Assembly: GCF_003851885.1 (NCBI RefSeq)
Contig: NZ_BHZE01000001.1
Span: forward strand, 1 to 64,000
Source of the DNA: Thermaurantimonas aggregans
GTDB lineage: Bacteria; Bacteroidota; Bacteroidia; Flavobacteriales; Schleiferiaceae
Length of the DNA stretch: 64,000 nt
Direction of reading: 5' to 3'
Shown here: positions 1 through 30,360 of the stretch, in pieces
Numbering within the stretch: the first letter of the stretch is position 1
Layout: each line of letters begins with the position of its first letter
Program-made: the position numbers and the translations under genes
Notes under the pieces: generated by a model
What the model was told of the DNA's origin: nothing
The model's input: only the letters and a program-made list of their open reading frames with translations
The model's database searches: none

Positions 1-156
1 GCATTCCCCGCTGTGGGGCAAAGAAAGAAGCTGGCGAGGCCGCCAGAAACACCAGCTACTAAGTACACACGTCAGCCGGCCGACATTCCGGCTTCGCTGA
101 GAAGAATGCCGGCCGTAGCTGTCGTGGAGAAAAGGTTTTCAGGCTTGACCTTTTTG

Positions 157-186
157 GTTCCTTTTTGTGTCAAGACAAAAAGGAAC
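157..186. repeat. perfect 12-bp inverted repeat (hairpin)
   Basis: GTTCCTTTTTGT at 157-168 pairs perfectly with ACAAAAAGGAAC at 175-186 across a 6-nt loop. The loop bases GTCAAG (169-174) can instead pair with CTTGAC at 144-149, so two stems exclude each other. Without a T-run directly after the stem it is not a clear terminator. Its function is unknown. Confidence 0.75.
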
Positions 187-314
187 GCCCGCGCGGCAGC
201 GCATTCACATAGTCCAAAACCATAAACCTACCCAAAACCCACACCCCTTCAACACCCATTAGCGAGTCCTGCAGGCAATAACTCCCCCCCCCAATAAATC
301 CAATGGAAATAGAT

Positions 315-381
315 CCACAGATCCCGACAAATCTCCTCTGAGCTTTCGTCGGTAGGGGCAGGGGGGGTAGTGAACAGAAAA
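315..381 (+). repeat. dispersed repeat copy E
   Basis: The block beginning CCACAGATCCCGACAAAT and containing CTTTCGTCGGTAGGGG is about 80% identical by eye to 4596-4642, in the same orientation. It ends in a G-rich run and TAGTGAACAGA, a degenerate form of the GGGTGAGTA end seen in the other copies. It has no coding content. Confidence 0.7.
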
Positions 382-435
382 ATCTCATCCGAGCGAACTG
401 TCAATAGCCTTTTATCGGCAAATCATTTATCCGTT

Positions 436-485
436 TTTTTTACTCACCCTAAATCCCTCTCTAAATCCGACGAGTGGATTTAAAG
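436..485 (-). repeat. dispersed repeat copy F (inverted copy)
   Basis: On the minus strand this reads TTTAGAGAGGG, then GGGTGAGTAAAAA, matching copy C at 30303-30360. It lies head to head with copy A, so 441-544 forms a composite with outer arms ACTCACCC (441-448) and GGGTGAGT (537-544), like paired REP units. Confidence 0.65.
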
Positions 486-496
486 AAGGACTTCTT

Positions 497-556
497 TCCC
501 CCCTCTTTGTTGCCGTAGGCAATAGAGAGGGGCCGGGGGTGAGTAGAACAAAATAG
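497..556 (+). repeat. dispersed repeat copy A (nested hairpin)
   Basis: CCCCTCT and AGAGGGG form an outer stem, and TTGCC/GGCAA an inner stem around a 3-nt loop. The block ends in GGGGGTGAGTAGAAC. It is about 80% identical by eye to copy B at 30121-30179, 29.6 kb away. Confidence 0.75.
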
Positions 557-659
557 AGCCCGTCACTAAAACCATGAAACTGACCACAAAATGTTAAAAT
601 TCCCCCAAAATCAACCCTGTTTTTTATCTTTGAACAACCAACCAAACAACCCACTCGTC

Positions 660-2210
660 ATGAAACACTTACTACACACCTCGCACGCACCTCGTATCCC
701 CATTGGGGGGGTGTAAAGCGCTGTATATCAGCTGCATATATAGCCATACATACATGGCTCAGCACCATTGCACTTACTGCACAGCCCGTTAATCCCGCCA
801 ACACACCTGACCAGATGATGCCCGGAGGTCCCTATCCCAACGTACAATACACCGGCGCCGACCAATGTTGGTGTCCCACTTGCCCGCAAAACGTGGCACA
901 GGTCTATTGTTGGGACGGCGACAACCCCGGCATAGCCTACTATGTGCCCGGCTCCGGCAATCCGCCACAGGTGCTTTCGCTGCCCATCGGCGCACATGAC
1001 CCGGACATTATTGTGGGCAGAGAGGGAGTATGGGGCTATGTGGTATACGAACTTGGTACAGATATCGTTTTGCACGAGTTCACCTGCAGTCCGCCGGTTG
1101 CGGCCACCTTATCACTTGGGTCAGCGACTATTTTGTCAACAAATGGACGACATCCGAATATAGATAGAGAAATAGATTGCGAGTTTTCGGGTTCAAAAGT
1201 TGCTGTTGTTTATCAAAATTTGACAGGAATACCCGATTTGGAGTATTATGAGGGCACATTTAATTCTTCTTTTAATGGACCACTTACGATTACAAATTTA
1301 TCAACTCCAATTAATAGCCCAATTAGAAGTTATGTAAACAGAACAAATCCAGATATTAATTTAATTAAGTTTAATAATGATTTTATTTATCAATTTACTT
1401 TCTGTGGATATGAAAATAACATATATTATGATAATATGGTTGATTATGTTCATGAAACCTCTTCAATTATAGGAACTAATATTTTTGCTCCAGAAATTCC
1501 CCTAAGTATTAATAATTTATATGATGTAAAACCTAGAATTGATGGAAATTTAATAATTTTTGACCCTCCACAATATGTATATACAGATCAATCATACATA
1601 ATTACTGTTGAATCAAATAATCAAATATTTTATTCTCACGCAAATGCTCTTTCACCCTCTTGGACAGATATAAACATATCTGGCACATTTGCTCAAAAAC
1701 CTGCCATAGCTGTACACGGTGATTTTGCAGATATAATTTGGTCAAATAATTTTCATGGCAAAATTAACATACTCGGCACAGAAATTCATGGTACGATTCA
1801 TTCATCTATCTATAAAGATGGAAATGTAAACATTACTTCGGGTTACAATTTTTTTGTATCCATCCATAGCATCTAATACATGTAATAAACTGACAGATTT
1901 ATATGCCATGTGCTGGTGGAGTACTGATGAAAATATTTATTTCAAAGCAGCGAGAACTCCACCATCACCAGCATATAGATATCAAAATCCAGAGAATACA
2001 CTTGTTCTGTATAAAGATAAATTTGAACAAGGAATAAAGTTAGTCGAAATATTTGATGTTGATCAACACATTACAGTTAATGATATTTCTGGTAAAATTC
2101 TTTTTAGAGGTAACGTAAGTGAAGTTCAAAATATATTAAATCAATTTTCAAAAGGTATATACTTAATTACCGCAAAAAATGGTATTAATAAGAAATTGCT
2201 GATACAATGA
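660..2210 (+). pseudogene. frame-broken T9SS type A surface protein
   Basis: The gene is open in three successive frames. An ATG at 660 starts a basic leader that must change frame at a run of seven G (705-711, one base short) to reach the hydrophobic signal segment ending LSTIALTAQ. The main frame then runs to a stop at 1876. A run of seven T (1849-1855, one base too many) shifts it into the last frame, which encodes a Por_Secre_tail (type A) sorting domain ending KGIYLITAKNGINKKLLIQ at 2210. The body holds spaced xPxI repeats (HDPDI, RHPNI, TNPDI, VKPRI, QKPAI) that suggest a beta-propeller. The function is probably cell-surface binding, by inference. It could be a true pseudogene, a phase-variable gene or a product of sequencing error. 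It overlaps the next gene by 4 nt, so the two are probably cotranscribed. The sequence from about 1140 onward is much more AT-rich than its start. Confidence 0.6.
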
Positions 2211-4486
2211 ATAAGGTTTTAAAAATAATGCTTTTAACAACTGCCCATTTGCTGGTCAGCTATGGTCAGCAAATGAAGCAGGTCATTTTTGGAGAAGGCA
2301 TTATGATGGACCTGACAACGGGCACTCCGGTGTTTTCACAGGTGCCGTCATGGCAGCAGCGCACCTTTCCTCCTTTCAGGCAGTGGAGCAATCAGGTATC
2401 GGTGTGGCCTGATGAAGATGGAAAGATAAAATTTTATTTTCTCAATGGCAAATACTTCGATGCAAATCACCAATTTTTAGGTGATGCCTGTAGTAAATAC
2501 ATAGATCCAATGTATACGTTTTTACCATCTAATTTTCTCAAATTTCCCGACGATCCGGATTCGGTGATATATCATTTTTTTTGTTATGTAGATACAGCTA
2601 ATAATTATAATGTTTTTCTTCCTGCTTTTCATCTTAATTTCAGCTCTATTAAGTTAAGATTGAATAAAATTATTTTATCATCATCTTTTATAATCGATTC
2701 TATAAATGAGTTAACTGTTACACTTTCTAATTCAACAAGCTTTTATGGTCATATTTTTTCACATATTGTATCGTTTACATCACGACTTGGAAATTTTAAT
2801 GTATTATTATTTGATTCAATAAATAAAACTTTTTATTTTTTTCATCCAAACCTTCAATCAATTAATTCTTTGTACCTTTACAACAAAATTTCAATAAATA
2901 AATTTCAAATAGATTTACAAAATGATAGTCTATTTAATTCGAGAATTTATATTTATTATGATAAAATAAGAAATTTATTAATATCATTTCACGGAAATTG
3001 GAGTTCTATACTAAATCAATGTTATTGTATTATAATCAAAAATTTGAATGATAATAGTATAAAGATTCTTGACACAAAAATAAATCAACTTATTTCTCTT
3101 ACAAATCCAGTTAGATACTTTGGTATTTTTTCAAACTTAGGAAAATATTTGTATTTATTTATTTTTAATAATCAAAATCTGAGGATTTTTAGATATAATT
3201 TGTACAACTTAGATAATTCACTTGTGTTTTCAAATACAGCTGAAGAGTTAGTTCTTAATCAAAATATTAATAACAAATTATTATTACTTCTGTCAAATAT
3301 ATCGAGTAATTATTCATTTTTCTACAATGGTTTAAATGAAATCTACTTTATAAAAAACACATATGAGTCTTCTTTTTTTCCTAACTACATTAATTCTTCT
3401 CTTTCAAACAATAAAGTTCATCGCATTTTAAATTCTGATGCGGATGATATCAATCAGGTCATATTTGATTTAGATATGTATCAGGGGCTACCGCATAGTA
3501 CCTTTGGCACATTTCCCTCACCATTACCTTTTAATTCATTACCTCCTGTTTTTTCTGTTAAAAATTCTTGCATCGACTCTACCCATTTTCACCTCAATTA
3601 TACGGCCATAGCCGATTCGGTGTGGTGGGATTTTGGCGACCCTGCCGGTCTTGGGCCGTTGAACCACAGCACGCAGTTTCACCCCGTGGTGAAGTATCCA
3701 CAGCATGGTACATACTACGTGCAGGTACAGCTCTGGTACGATGGCGACAGCATTACGACGATGGGCGATTCGGTGAAGGTGCTGCCCGTACCCCAGGTGG
3801 ACCTTGGCTTTACCGATACTTTGCTTTGCCGGGGCGAGAGTGTGTTGTTGGACGCATCACAGGGCTTCCCGGCCAGCTACCTCTGGAGCACAGGCAGTAG
3901 CGACAGCACGCTATCGGTCAATCAATCGGGTCGCTATTGGGTGCAAGTGTCCACTCCCTGCGGTACGGTGAGCGATACGGTCATCGTATCGGTGATTGAC
4001 CCGCCGGAAATGAAGGTACACGACACAGCCGTGTGCTTTTTCGGGCCGGTGCTTTACGATGTATTGGCTGACAGCGCCACCTATCTGTGGAGCGACGGGA
4101 GCACATCGCCCACCTTTGCCCCCCGACAGATGGGCAACTATTGGGTAGAAGTGACCAACCCATGCGGGGGCTATCGGCAGGACTTCAGGGTAGAACTTCA
4201 AAACTGTGAAACCACCCTGTACATCCCCAATGCCTTCACGCCCAACGGCGATGGGCGGAATGACTGCTTTCAGGTGGTAGGCGACAATCTGAGCAGCTAT
4301 CAGATACAGGTCTTTAGCCGGTGGGGAGAATTGGTGTACGAGAGCGATGATGTAAGCCAGTGCTGGGATGGCACCCACCGGGGTCGTCCGGTGCCCGACG
4401 GGGTTTACTTGTATGTAATCCGCCACACTGACCGCCACGGCGCAGTTATGCCTGTTCGCCGGGGAGAGATACGGCTGTATCGGTGA
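2207..4486 (+). CDS. T9SS type B sorting-domain surface protein with PKD domain
   Basis: This is a 759-residue secreted protein. A signal peptide (MNKVLKIMLLTTAHLLVSYG) is followed by about 420 residues of unrecognised sequence rich in Asn, Ile, Phe and Ser. A PKD-like domain (about 445-530, with VWWDFGDPAG) and an Ig-like segment with two YLW/YWV repeats come next. A CHU_C domain with IPNAFTPNGDGRNDCF fills about 670-759. CHU_C is the type B sorting signal that sends cargo through the T9SS to the cell surface. The DNA is mosaic: about 2430-3550 is strongly AT-rich, while both ends have higher GC, with a sharp change near 3560. The gene starts inside the stop of the upstream broken gene. The ligand is unknown. 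Confidence 0.85.
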   Translation: MNKVLKIMLLTTAHLLVSYGQQMKQVIFGEGIMMDLTTGTPVFSQVPSWQQRTFPPFRQWSNQVSVWPDEDGKIKFYFLNGKYFDANHQFLGDACSKYIDPMYTFLPSNFLKFPDDPDSVIYHFFCYVDTANNYNVFLPAFHLNFSSIKLRLNKIILSSSFIIDSINELTVTLSNSTSFYGHIFSHIVSFTSRLGNFNVLLFDSINKTFYFFHPNLQSINSLYLYNKISINKFQIDLQNDSLFNSRIYIYYDKIRNLLISFHGNWSSILNQCYCIIIKNLNDNSIKILDTKINQLISLTNPVRYFGIFSNLGKYLYLFIFNNQNLRIFRYNLYNLDNSLVFSNTAEELVLNQNINNKLLLLLSNISSNYSFFYNGLNEIYFIKNTYESSFFPNYINSSLSNNKVHRILNSDADDINQVIFDLDMYQGLPHSTFGTFPSPLPFNSLPPVFSVKNSCIDSTHFHLNYTAIADSVWWDFGDPAGLGPLNHSTQFHPVVKYPQHGTYYVQVQLWYDGDSITTMGDSVKVLPVPQVDLGFTDTLLCRGESVLLDASQGFPASYLWSTGSSDSTLSVNQSGRYWVQVSTPCGTVSDTVIVSVIDPPEMKVHDTAVCFFGPVLYDVLADSATYLWSDGSTSPTFAPRQMGNYWVEVTNPCGGYRQDFRVELQNCETTLYIPNAFTPNGDGRNDCFQVVGDNLSSYQIQVFSRWGELVYESDDVSQCWDGTHRGRPVPDGVYLYVIRHTDRHGAVMPVRRGEIRLYR

Positions 4487-4595
4487 TTATTTGAACTTTT
4501 ACTTGAACTAAAATCCAATTCAAGGCCCTATCTGCGCCTTTGTGTGTTCAGAAACAAACAACTCCTACCTTTTTGATGCCAAAGGCAACAGAGAG

Positions 4596-4660
4596 CCACT
4601 GATCACGACAAATTTCCCCCTGAACTTTCGTCGGTAGGGGGATGAGGGGGGTGAGTAAAT
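4596..4660 (+). repeat. dispersed repeat copy D
   Basis: This copy matches E (315-381), including GACAAAT and CTTTCGTCGGTAGGGG, and ends in the full GGGGGGTGAGTAAAT tail. It lies between the convergent ends of the surface-protein gene and murF-alr. With E it brackets the 660-4486 gene pair as direct repeats. A short GCC/GGC hairpin at 4578-4587 precedes it. Confidence 0.7.
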
Positions 4661-4665
4661 AAAAC

Positions 4666-7170
4666 CTACTCCTTGTAATAAATCCTCCTAACCCGATGAC
4701 CTACTGACGTAAGTACTTCATATGGTATGGTTCCCATTTGACGCGCGAGATCTTGTATGCTCTGGTGTGGACCAATGATTTCCACCGGATCATCAGCCTT
4801 TATATTATCAAGTCCCGAAACATCTACCATTGTCATATCCATACATACACGACCGATGATTGGACAATACACACCGTGTATATAAAATCCGCCTTTTCCG
4901 TTGCTAAGCGAGCGTCGAATGCCATCGGCATATCCAACCGCTACAGTCGCTGATTTCATCGGCTTATCAGCCACAAACGACCTACCATACCCCACCGAAT
5001 CACCAGATTTTAATTCCTTTACTTGGCTTACAAACGAATACCATTCTACCGCCGGTTGCAGATTGCGTTCTATCTCCGGCGAATGAGCTATACCATATAA
5101 ACCTATTCCTAAACGCACCATTTGACATCGATCATCAAAATAGTCCAATGAACCAGCTGTATTGTGGATATGTCTGATCACCTTGTATCCAATGGCTTTT
5201 TCTATTTTCTCTGCAATGGTGTGAAATTGCTCTATTTGTTTAATTGTAAAGTCTTTATGTAAGGGCTCATCGGCAGCTGCCAGGTGTGAGAGCACACTTT
5301 CTACTACAATGTGATTTGGCAGCTTTTGAAGTTTTGAAATCAATATATCAGCATGATCAGGTTCAAAGCCTAGCCTTTTCATGCCTGTATCGATTTTCAG
5401 GTGGATTTTAATCAGACTTGTGGTAGAAAGATTTTTCAATTGCTCAAGCTGTTCGAAGCTGTAGATCTCTGGTTGCAGATCGTGCTCTATCACCAGCGGC
5501 AGCACATGTGGGTGTGCGTTCATCACCATAATGGGAAGCGGAATGTGTGCATTGCGCAATTCAATGCCCTCGTCGGCATAGGCTACAGCTAAGTAATCGA
5601 CCCCCACTGAAGTAAGGAATCTCGCCAATTCCACTGATCCCGAGCCGTAGGAAGCAGCTTTTACCATAGCCATTACTTTGGTGCTATTGGGCAATCGCGA
5701 ACGGAAGTAAGAGAGATTTCGTCCAATGGCACTGAGGTTAATTTCCAAACGGGTTTCGTGCACATGTGCAGACAGACTTTGGGCGATTTTTTCAAAACCA
5801 AATCGCCGGGCACCCTTCAGCAAGATATCTGTATGCGTGGGCGGATGATGTTTAAAGTCCTGAAGAAGCTCTTCAGTTGTAGTAAATATCTTAATAGCAT
5901 TTGATGAAAAGGGAATGGGCAGAATAGGCCTTTTGCCAACATAATAGACTGTGTATCTATCAGAAGGTTGCACACTCAGTTCGCGCTGCAAAATATCAAA
6001 ATACTCCAGTTGCTGTTCGCTTTTGAGCTGGTCAAGCTCCGAGAGCACCAGGATTTTTTTTCGGCTTGTATCCAATGAAAAAAGGGTGCGCAGGGCATAC
6101 ACGAGTGCCTCAGGGTCTGCTGTGTACGAGTCGTTCAAAATCATGCAGTCGTTGATGCCGTGTGTCCATTCCATGCGCATGCGTACCGGTGTGAGAGCAG
6201 CCATTTTCCGCAGGATTTGTCTGTCTCCATTGGTGAGTAAAAGAGCTGCTGAAAGGGCAGTAAAGCTGTTTTTGACAGAAAGTTCATCTGTGAAGGGAAC
6301 AGCAAATTCACATTCTTTCTGACTTAAAGGCTTAAACGGGCTTTTCTTTAGAGTGTAAATGTCATTTTTTACATGTTGAAATGCAAAGTCGCTGTCTTTT
6401 GATTCGAATGACCATCTGTAAAGATGTCTATCAGAAAAATTATTTGAAAAAAATTCCAAAACCTCAGGTTGATCTGTGCCCAAAATGATGTTCTTTACTT
6501 GCTGAAAGAGTTTACTCTTTTCAGTCAATTTCTGCCTTCGGTTGGTAAACCCGGCGTCGTGAGCACTGCCCAGATACGTAAAAATACCAACATCAGGGCG
6601 AATGATGCGTTCCAGCTTTTCCATTTCGCCAGGCTGAGAAATGCCGGCTTCGATAATGGCGAAGCTATGGTGGGGTTCAATCTTCCAGACCGAGAGCGGC
6701 ACACCTACCTGCGAATTATAACTCAGAGGGCTTTTTGCGACATCGTAATCCGGCCACAGGAGGTCATAGAGCCATTCTTTTACCATAGTCTTGCCATTGG
6801 AGCCGGTGATGCCGATTACAGTGGTCGATTTCAACCGGCTTCGGTGATGAGCTGCCAAAATTTGTAAAGCTGCAAGGTTGTCTGATACTTTGAAAAAAGT
6901 GACCTCCGGCGGTATTTCTGATGGCAATCGTTCGACCACAGCGTATTTTAAGCCGTTTTGAATAGCTTGTGGTAAGAAATCGTGCGCGTCGAAATGAGGG
7001 CCACGCAGGCAGAAAAAAAGGCTTTCTGACGCCGGCATAGCCTGTCGGGTATCAGTCCACAAGTGATACAAACAGCGCCTATCATGCACCGGACCAATAA
7101 CCTCAGCTTGTAGAATTTCAGCTACTTCTGCCGGTGAATATGGCTTAGGATGATGAATGCTCGAACTCAC
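4666..7170 (-). CDS. bifunctional MurF ligase / alanine racemase
   Basis: This 834-residue fusion joins two steps of peptidoglycan precursor synthesis in the cytoplasm. The N-terminal half (about 1-465) is UDP-MurNAc-tripeptide:D-Ala-D-Ala ligase, with ATP loop GITGSNGKT at about 120-128 and [10 protein letters not shown] near 346. The C-terminal half (about 473-834) is a PLP-dependent alanine racemase with PLP lysine K504 in [10 protein letters not shown], catalytic Tyr near 728 in SVGYGRSF, and [11 protein letters not shown] near 774. Alanine racemase supplies D-Ala for the D-Ala-D-Ala that MurF attaches. The same fusion is standard in Bacteroidota, so it is not an assembly artefact. The start overlaps the tdk stop by 4 nt, and both are probably read from the promoter at 7771-7778. 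Confidence 0.95.
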
Positions 7171-29925: not shown

Positions 29926-30037
29926 GGGCGTGCCCCCGGCGAAAGCACTCTTAGCGCTTTCGCCGGGGGCGGGATTATCCAGACAAATCAGCTTTTGCTG
30001 ATGGCGTCTGTGACTATCTGCTTCTATCCCTCACGCG
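29926..30037. repeat. GGGCGTGCCC...TCACGCG element, copy 1
   Basis: It begins GGGCGTGCCCC 27 nt after the stop at 29899 and ends TCACGCG. Inside is a perfect 15-bp stem: GCCCCCGGCGAAAGC (29932-29946) with GCTTTCGCCGGGGGC (29956-29970). Both the start motif and the end motif recur in copy 2 at 53902-54030. The ends are short inverted repeats (GCGTG/CACGC). Confidence 0.75.
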
Positions 30038-30038
30038 G

Positions 30039-30060
30039 AAGCGGCCTTCAGCCGCTTTTT
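30039..30060 (+). terminator. terminator-like hairpin
   Basis: AAGCGGC (30039-30045), loop CTTCA and GCCGCTT (30051-30057) are followed by T residues to 30060. It could end the transcript of the 26633 gene, although it lies 140 nt after its stop. Confidence 0.5.
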
Positions 30061-30120
30061 AATATTTCAACTAAAAAATCCTTTTTCCACACCCACCTAC
30101 GAGTTCTACTGGAGACACTA

Positions 30121-30179
30121 TCCCCCCTCTTTGTTGCCGAAGGCAACAGGGCGGGGCTAGGGATGAATAGAACAAATAA
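30121..30179 (+). repeat. dispersed repeat copy B (nested hairpin)
   Basis: It starts TCCCCCCTCTTTGTTGCCG, identical to copy A at 497, and ends GGATGAATAGAAC. The inner stem GTTGCC/GGCAAC has loop GAA; the outer stem is CCCC/GGGG. Identity with copy A is about 80% by eye over 60 nt. Confidence 0.75.
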
Positions 30180-30302
30180 GCAGAGGGGTGGTAACTCTTT
30201 TGGGTTAAAAGGAAAGGGTTAAGGCAAAAGGGATTTGAACACCAACTTCAACTAAAATCAAAACTTTTTTTGCGTTCTTTTGAGCGTTCTGCGGGAAAAC
30301 AA

Positions 30303-30360
30303 CTCCCCTCTTTAATTCCAATGGATTTAGAGAGGGGGAAGGAGGGTGAGTAAAAAATTC
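30303..30360 (+). repeat. dispersed repeat copy C (hairpin)
   Basis: CCCCTCT (30305-30311) pairs with AGAGGGG (30331-30337) around an inner TCC/GGA stem. The tail GGAGGGTGAGTAAAAAA matches the copy F tail. It lies just before the convergent glycosyltransferase end. Confidence 0.65.

Follow-up and report, generated by a model that had tools for sequence, protein, structure and literature searches.

Close to the start of contig C1 of Thermaurantimonas aggregans lies an inverted pair of hairpins, and the question it raises is what kind of repeat this pair is and what could have spread it. We analysed the first 64,000 nucleotides of that contig (the window) together with the whole genome assembly (2.67 Mb, 57 contigs, 99.93% complete). 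An earlier sequence-only reading had described two head-to-head hairpins with internal stems and had likened them to bacterial interspersed mosaic elements (BIMEs). That arrangement was borne out, with outward ends ACTCACCC (442-449) and GGGTGAGT (537-544) and an internal stem in each half. The element and its parts are as follows.

442-544, no strand assigned: two-hairpin element, matched end to end by covariance model R1.
442-449, minus strand: left outer arm ACTCACCC; read on the minus strand it is GGGTGAGT and forms the left half's mirror tail, a candidate third strand; from the sequence and the mirror-tail rule.
450-493, minus strand: left hairpin, type-A-like, reading GAGAGGG-ATTTA-GGGTGAG on the minus strand, with an extra inner stem AAATCC/GGATTT; from the sequence, model R1 and the fold.
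500-532, plus strand: right hairpin CCCCTCTTTGTTGCC-GTA-GGCAATAGAGAGGGG, type-B-like; from the sequence, the strict motif rule, the fold and the triplex pattern.
533-544, plus strand: linker CCG (533-535), mirror tail GGGGTGA (536-542), then GT, forming the candidate third strand and the right end; from the strict rules and the triplex pattern.

The complete layout of 442-544 is ACTCACCC-TAAAT-CCCTCTC-TAAATCC..GGATTTA-AAGAAGGA-CTT...CCCCTCT-TTGTTGCC-GTA-GGCAATA-GAGAGGGG-CCG-GGGGTGA-GT, and in the predicted fold the ends would pair together and enclose the two hairpins. The right half is a perfect 7/7 mirror with a linker of 3 nt. In the left half (442-493) the outer arm, tail and pyrimidine arm are intact, and the mirror is not perfect because the inner (purine) arm has decayed (AAGAAGGA). 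Under the 7-nt rule the window has a single strict hairpin-plus-mirror-tail motif, at 500-542, and 10 shuffles made in 200-base blocks have none.

The family recurs in the window. The three recurrences listed in the sequence-only reading, at 4596, 30121 and 30303, correspond to the last three copies below, and a decayed neighbour copy had been overlooked.

283-385, no strand assigned: decayed neighbour copy with hairpin module M3 (CCGACAAATCTCC..GAGCTTTCGTCGG), the end of an ~420-bp array unit that the contig start truncates; from sequence matches.
4562-4666, no strand assigned: related copy with modules M2 and M3 and right end GGGTGAGTA, convergent ORFs on either side; from sequence matches and the ORF rule.
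30118-30176, no strand assigned: right-half relative at 85% identity with decayed end GGGATGAATAG; from sequence matches and the ORF rule.
30293-30357, no strand assigned: related copy ending GGGTGAGTA, between the same convergent ORFs as 30118-30176; from sequence matches and the ORF rule.

The copy at 30118-30176 ends in GGGATGAATAG, and therefore the GGGTGAGTA end is not universal, contrary to the common end that had been ascribed to all copies. GGGTGAGTA is found exactly at four sites in the window (441-449 on the minus strand; 537-545, 4649-4657 and 30344-30352 on the plus strand), and with up to one mismatch there are 13 matches where 6.83 (sd 2.32) are expected, a number reached in 0 of 100 shuffles. 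In the whole genome, positions 436-552 used as query find 17 places at E<=1, two of them at E 0.146, and a longer relative gives 51 matches at E<=10, the 16 with E >=0.8 being at chance level. The sequence-only reading had left it to a genome-wide count whether there are more than the few copies in the window; merged by hand, the matches amount to 23 places, two of which are supported solely by the E 0.146 matches. Its description of the copies as always between genes holds for all of them, with 0/23 inside an ORF of 110 aa or longer under a simple ORF rule: eight lie between convergent ORFs, six between divergent and four between tandem ORFs, and five are at contig edges. GGGTGAGTAAA occurs six times in the genome and its reversed control not at all. 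The strict motif is present in only three (7-nt rule) or five (6-nt rule) places in the window and 13 fetched stretches, and the genome copies combine, in mosaic fashion, three or more hairpin modules between similar ends.

Two arrays of ~420-bp units hold the element, and several contigs end in or near such repeats, so the copy number is probably underestimated. The palindrome-rich units (e.g. GACCTTTTTGGTTCCTTTTTGTGTCAAGACAAAAAGGAACG) are seen at C5:63250-64950 (L054), at C4:75750-76700 (L055) and at 1-385 of the window; the contigs ending in or near the array are C1, C20, C7 and C32. We considered a coding array and rejected it, as the unit spacings of 443, 418 and 421 are not multiples of three. 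Module M3 (CCGACAAA.CTC..GAGCTTTCGTCGGTAG) is nested in element copies at 311-369 and 4592-4649 of the window and in L059. About 100 bp from the element there is often another repeat, CCCTCACGCGGCAGCGGCC..GGCCGCTTTT (30029-30076 of the window, L058, L063, L065, L066), which is also found with no element nearby (C8:22031).

With REP/BIME repeats and their RAYT transposases the family shares short palindromic units, inverted pairs, and gene-less copies beside a presumed cognate enzyme, as that system is described in the accessible part of PMC3733652. The BIME comparison made in the sequence-only reading stood as far as the mosaic, intergenic, multi-copy, paired and inverted hairpins are concerned, and RAYTs are present in the same order of bacteria; it fell where it implied the REP/RAYT system, because a profile search of the whole genome with PF01797, in which the E. 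coli control was detected, found no Y1 transposase. The statement that the window has no RAYT gene thus extends to the genome, and no Y1 gene lies beside any copy. Among the 99 genomes searched together, this one included, 34 have a PF01797 match. The hairpins flanking the RAYT genes of relatives are, judged by eye, of different sequence, and of 27 Y1/RAYT genes none lies within 250 bp of a hairpin with purine and pyrimidine arms or within 300 bp of a triplex-type motif. Furthermore, REP tags are GTAG or CGTC (accessible part of PMC3733652), whereas no such tag stands beside the hairpins of 442-544, whose ends are ACTCACCC/GGGTGAGT; the GGGTGAG 'tag' of the element repeats the purine arm in mirror order behind a short linker, and the protein associated with the family is not a Y1 enzyme but the PD-(D/E)XK-type DUF559 protein discussed below. 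The absent Y1, the differing RAYT-flank hairpins and the count of 0/27 speak against a REP/RAYT system, and we regard it as very improbable that the window elements were mobilised by a RAYT. The letters CGTC and GTAG do occur in module M3. By eye, the RAYT genes of relatives (L086-L103), flanked by inverted, genome-specific REPs, form typical REP/RAYT pairs.

The mirror tail places the element in another class of repeat. In many hairpins of the family the outer end mirrors the purine arm, commonly after 3 nt, as in AGAGGGA-TTT-AGGGTGA, AGAGGGG-CCG-GGGGTGA, GAAGGGG-TCG-GGGGATG, AAGGGGG-TTA-GGGGGTT and GGAGGGG-CCG-GGGGTGG. The rule pairs G with G and A with A or T over 7 positions, and the count reads each palindrome on both strands. 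Near DUF559 genes, the mirror tail is a perfect 7/7 in 68 of 212 hairpin readings, compared with a mean of 13.8 (maximum 23) for permuted tails (n=200), 2.5 for shuffled tails and 4/213 on the 5' side; at 6/7 or better the contrast is weaker, with 80 readings against a permuted mean of 62.3 (maximum 74). Arm and tail covary between genomes. Linker length, which varies with where the arm is cut, is 3 nt in 53 and 5 nt in 43 of 119 motifs with 6-nt arms. In three loci of relatives (L265, L266 and L272) another hairpin in the linker seems, by eye, to part the mirror tail from its hairpin.

An intrastrand-triplex motif of this kind is named BoxC, PIT or TM, and such repeats have been known since the 1990s; in the accessible part of the E. 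coli survey, the triplex is reported to form in vitro, stable triplexes in vivo are not supported, K-12 has 23 TM copies including five inverted pairs, each of one type A and one type B, and mobility genes (transposase, integrase remnants) are said never to be found around the TM sites (PMC4666352). The element in the window has the same pyrimidine arm, loop, purine arm, short linker and mirror tail GGGTGAG(GG), and its intergenic pair is A-like plus B-like, with ATTTA and CCG linkers, like the E. coli pairs (compared by eye, for this one element, with Table 1 in the accessible part of PMC4666352). Its stems differ in carrying extra inner stems and nested hairpins, and both of its tails face outward; the same table shows, as we read it, inward tails in four of the five E. 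coli pairs. Compared with the E. coli repeats as surveyed, the lineage and the link to DUF559 genes are new. With a right-half mirror tail, multiple intergenic copies and an inverted A+B pair, the window element is very probably, to judge from its sequence, a BoxC/TM-type repeat in a new lineage.

The reach of the family is hidden from ordinary DNA comparison. The full element as a DNA query gives only two weak matches in 98 relatives, and the wide family therefore came to light only with an end-plus-stem pattern. This 19-nt pattern, ACTCACCCYAAATCCCTCT, matches at least 113 stretches in 257 billion bases, where by our estimate about four are expected by chance, and the titles of the matching records include Ignavibacteria, Bacteroidetes, Calditrichota, Zixibacteria, Peregrinibacteria and cyanobacteria. 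The usual order of parts is AACTCACCCTAAAT and a CCCTCTC/GAGAGGG hairpin, then ACTT and a spacer, and last a CCCCTTCTC/GAGAAGGGG hairpin followed by YGGGGGATGAGTT; a loose two-end pattern is matched by 63 different stretches, of which at least two look doubtful by eye, and other ACTCACCCYAAATCCCTCT stretches lack the second hairpin. Model R1 was built from 32 cross-phylum stretches, none of them from this genome. In a search of the whole genome in which 150 of 674 first-look candidates were scored, with a short calibration that leaves the E-values rough, 442-544 matched end to end and was the best of the candidates scored (51.4 bits, E 6.4e-8). The ends and two-hairpin layout of 442-544 are those of elements in other phyla. 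Four more copies in the genome score 35.0, 30.1, 28.5 and 24.1 bits (E 3.6e-4 to 0.12), and two further matches are at chance level. In L120, L130, L139 and L212 the loop of the second hairpin holds another palindrome (AAGTCGAAGATCCCGCC..GGCGGGAAGAAGGGG), a nested insertion.

Could these be bidirectional terminators of an ordinary kind, or intergenic structures acting at the RNA level, maintained by selection and convergent in sequence? The eight of 23 copies between convergent ORFs would suit such a role, and similar repeats in Enterobacter 638 have been presumed to be terminators (accessible part of PMC2869309). However, six of the 23 lie between divergent ORFs, a 19-nt end-plus-stem sequence is identical across phyla, and a terminator has no need of a mirror tail. 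Earlier work found no terminator activity, as related in the accessible part of PMC4666352, and Rfam returns no family at threshold for positions 1-6000 of the window, with three sub-threshold matches. We therefore consider the terminator explanation improbable. The element also resembles a MITE in being short and gene-less with inverted ends, but its ends are hairpins with mirror tails, and none of 52 cross-phylum elements (a set to which the window copies do not belong) has a direct repeat of at least 4 nt in its flanks. Among the same 52, one has a flank repeat of 3 nt (0.18 expected) and five of 2 nt (2.1 expected). The first 3 nt outward pair above permuted flanks (mean 1.94 versus 1.51, reached in 0/1000 permutations), a weak lead.

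The new observation is that triplex-type motifs flank genes for DUF559 (YcjD-type, PD-(D/E)XK) proteins. A DUF559 ORF is present in nine of 80 element loci scanned (of 113), mostly less than 200 bp from the element and in several cases between two hairpins; three of these nine loci supplied the DUF559 profile. A DUF559 match is found in 34 of 36 genomes that were chosen because they bear the element, with up to 10 matches each, some broken, and in two of the 34 solely as a domain of a frame of more than 1100 aa. We examined 30 DUF559 loci from these genomes and 29 from relatives unselected for the element, which had 33 matches. By a rule written after the DUF559 flanks had been seen (a hairpin within 250 bp), purine/pyrimidine hairpins stand on both sides of the gene in 21/30 element-selected and 16/29 unselected loci, versus 0/27 Y1/RAYT genes, 0/106 same-locus controls and 0/2000 random positions. 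On at least one side the counts are 27/30 and 23/29, versus 0/27, 5/106 and 32/2000, respectively.

The stricter motif gives the same picture. Under the 6-nt rule it lies within 300 bp on at least one side in 37 of the 59 DUF559 loci and on both sides in 26, or in 63/118 flanks versus 1/107 control stretches; the 7-nt rule gives 33/59 on one side and 20/59 on both. The fairest test comes from 16 named records of cyanobacteria, Deinococcus, Proteobacteria and Bacillota, our own pick from 55, which were fetched after the mirror-tail rule had been set. Here the motif is present on at least one side in 11/16 and on both in 6/16 (8/16 and 3/16 under the 7-nt rule), and in 17/32 flanks versus 2/32 control stretches 700-1000 bp away. 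There is no strict motif within 300 bp in 22 of the 59 loci and five of the 16 named records. A single triplex pattern, run over 99 genomes (~246 Mb of relatives plus this genome), matches 10 times and its reversed form never. One match is 500-542 of the window element, and seven of the nine outside this genome are 180 bp or less from a DUF559 match (the exceptions being G018 C6 and G004 C4), a proportion that is partly built in because the pattern was written after seeing the flanks of the same DUF559 genes. DUF559 is present in 8/8 genomes holding triplex-pattern matches versus 18/98 (Fisher 2.8e-7), a value that overstates independence because the 99 genomes represent one order, some sharing a genus, and include this one.

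YcjD is a known member of the PD-(D/E)XK nucleases (accessible part of PMC1189080), and the DUF559 profile matches the endonuclease-like PDB entry 3hrl (E 2.7e-30) and a mobile intron protein, 3r3p (E 4.7e-7). An alignment of 10 sequences has 16 invariant columns, including D65, E76 and G79. The genes between and beside the hairpins are of the same type as those for DUF559/YcjD/Vsr-like proteins, E. coli YcjD being a member, but the accessible parts of PMC1189080 and PMC12907096 treat these as PD-(D/E)XK nucleases or mismatch-repair candidates and not as part of a repeat-ended mobile element. A literature search that covered neither subscription papers nor preprints returned no report linking DUF559 to the repeats as a mobiliser. 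DUF559-like matches are also seen in five phage records.

DUF559 units are further observed within long open frames (L251, L252, L270, L253, L258, L250 and L262). The frame at L270 we take, by eye, to be MetH, and others of these frames, again by eye, to be LeuRS, HsdR and a methylase-type protein. At L251, DUF559 lies in frame inside IleRS, frame residues 476-620 (145 residues) being extra between residues 539 and 541 of PDB chain 8c8u. A further hint of mobility is that, in two Deinococcus plasmids, DUF559 units occupy different sites of the same hpa gene cluster. Several DUF559 units have the same ends as short gene-less elements.

The architecture, the family match across phyla, the mirror-tail rule and the close association of motif and DUF559 gene are established. 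The best explanation, on which we are evenly divided, is that the window element is a non-autonomous, decaying copy of a cross-phylum element linked to DUF559. In this reading the element is an inverted pair of intrastrand-triplex hairpins of the BoxC/PIT/TM kind, with A-like and B-like halves and outward tails, and its fuller form would carry the DUF559 nuclease-like gene between or beside such hairpins. The protein may recognise the folded ends on single-stranded or cruciform DNA, cut there, and move or copy both its own element and gene-less relatives in trans. The enzyme would here have been lost, or be provided from elsewhere, given that no free-standing DUF559 turned up in the genome.

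We infer, with a confidence just short of even, that DUF559 is the cognate mobiliser of the family. Several observations count against this. The putative mobiliser is absent where the element is, as the genome search found no free-standing DUF559, its one clear match being an MTES_1575-type domain in a 1497-aa frame; that search can miss DUF559, since E. coli was not among the PF04480 controls detected although YcjD scores 167 bits. The orientation of the outermost tails is mixed in the 59 loci, pointing outward in 17/32 leftmost and 16/31 rightmost cases, compared with 8/8 and 8/9 in the named records. The DUF559 loci with no motif, the two of nine pattern matches away from DUF559, the decayed left half, the lack of target-site duplication in the 52 elements and of observed movement, and the lack of support for stable triplexes in vivo (accessible part of PMC4666352) also weigh against it.

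Some of the same observations could be read in another way, with DUF559 as a passenger that inserts in or near repeats in a homing-like manner while the repeats spread by replication slippage, recombination or some transposase. The match to the mobile intron protein 3r3p (E 4.7e-7) and the in-frame units inside IleRS, where homing elements can sit, agree with this, as do the mixed tails and the presence of repeats in a genome in which no free-standing DUF559 was found. However, the same ends occur on several DUF559 units and on short gene-less elements, and hairpin arm and mirror tail covary between genomes, a pattern most simply explained by ends and gene moving together as a unit. We therefore consider a passenger role unlikely, though it is the weightier of the alternatives to mobilisation by DUF559. 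Slightly more tentatively than for the mobiliser role itself, we propose that pan-bacterial mobile elements with intrastrand-triplex hairpin ends use DUF559/YcjD nucleases as their enzymes and form a class of which the BoxC/PIT/TM repeats, those of E. coli and of the window included, would be gene-less copies. DUF559:BoxC could then be a second system beside RAYT:REP and unrelated to it, inserting even in frame into essential genes.

The nuclease-like DUF559 protein, as a frequent neighbour, is a first mobility candidate for the BoxC/PIT/TM repeats. If the proposal is true, triple-helix-forming ends would be a new kind of mobile-element recognition site, and a role could be assigned to a large protein family whose annotation is 'unknown function'. 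Because E. coli K-12 has both ycjD and 23 TM motifs, the question can be addressed in a laboratory strain. There, ycjD (1351407-1351760; DUF559 match of 167 bits) lies 167 bp, measured from its 3' end, from TM/BoxC copy no. 9 (1351204-1351239), and the chance of any of the 23 copies being so close is about 0.004. A query of the ycjD region matches 5375 of 5426 genomes, 3333 of them over at least 80% of its length, but includes sapF and fabI sequence, so these are not counts of ycjD; among the matches listed for it, ycjD is annotated in 12/12. In MG1655 the 3' end of ycjD runs into TM-like sequence (L302, 1700-2310), and a long palindrome, TCACCTCATTCTGACA..TGTCAGAATGAGGTGA, lies upstream. Strain KE47 has a fuller TM-like copy at the ycjD 3' end than MG1655 (L302, L293, L294).
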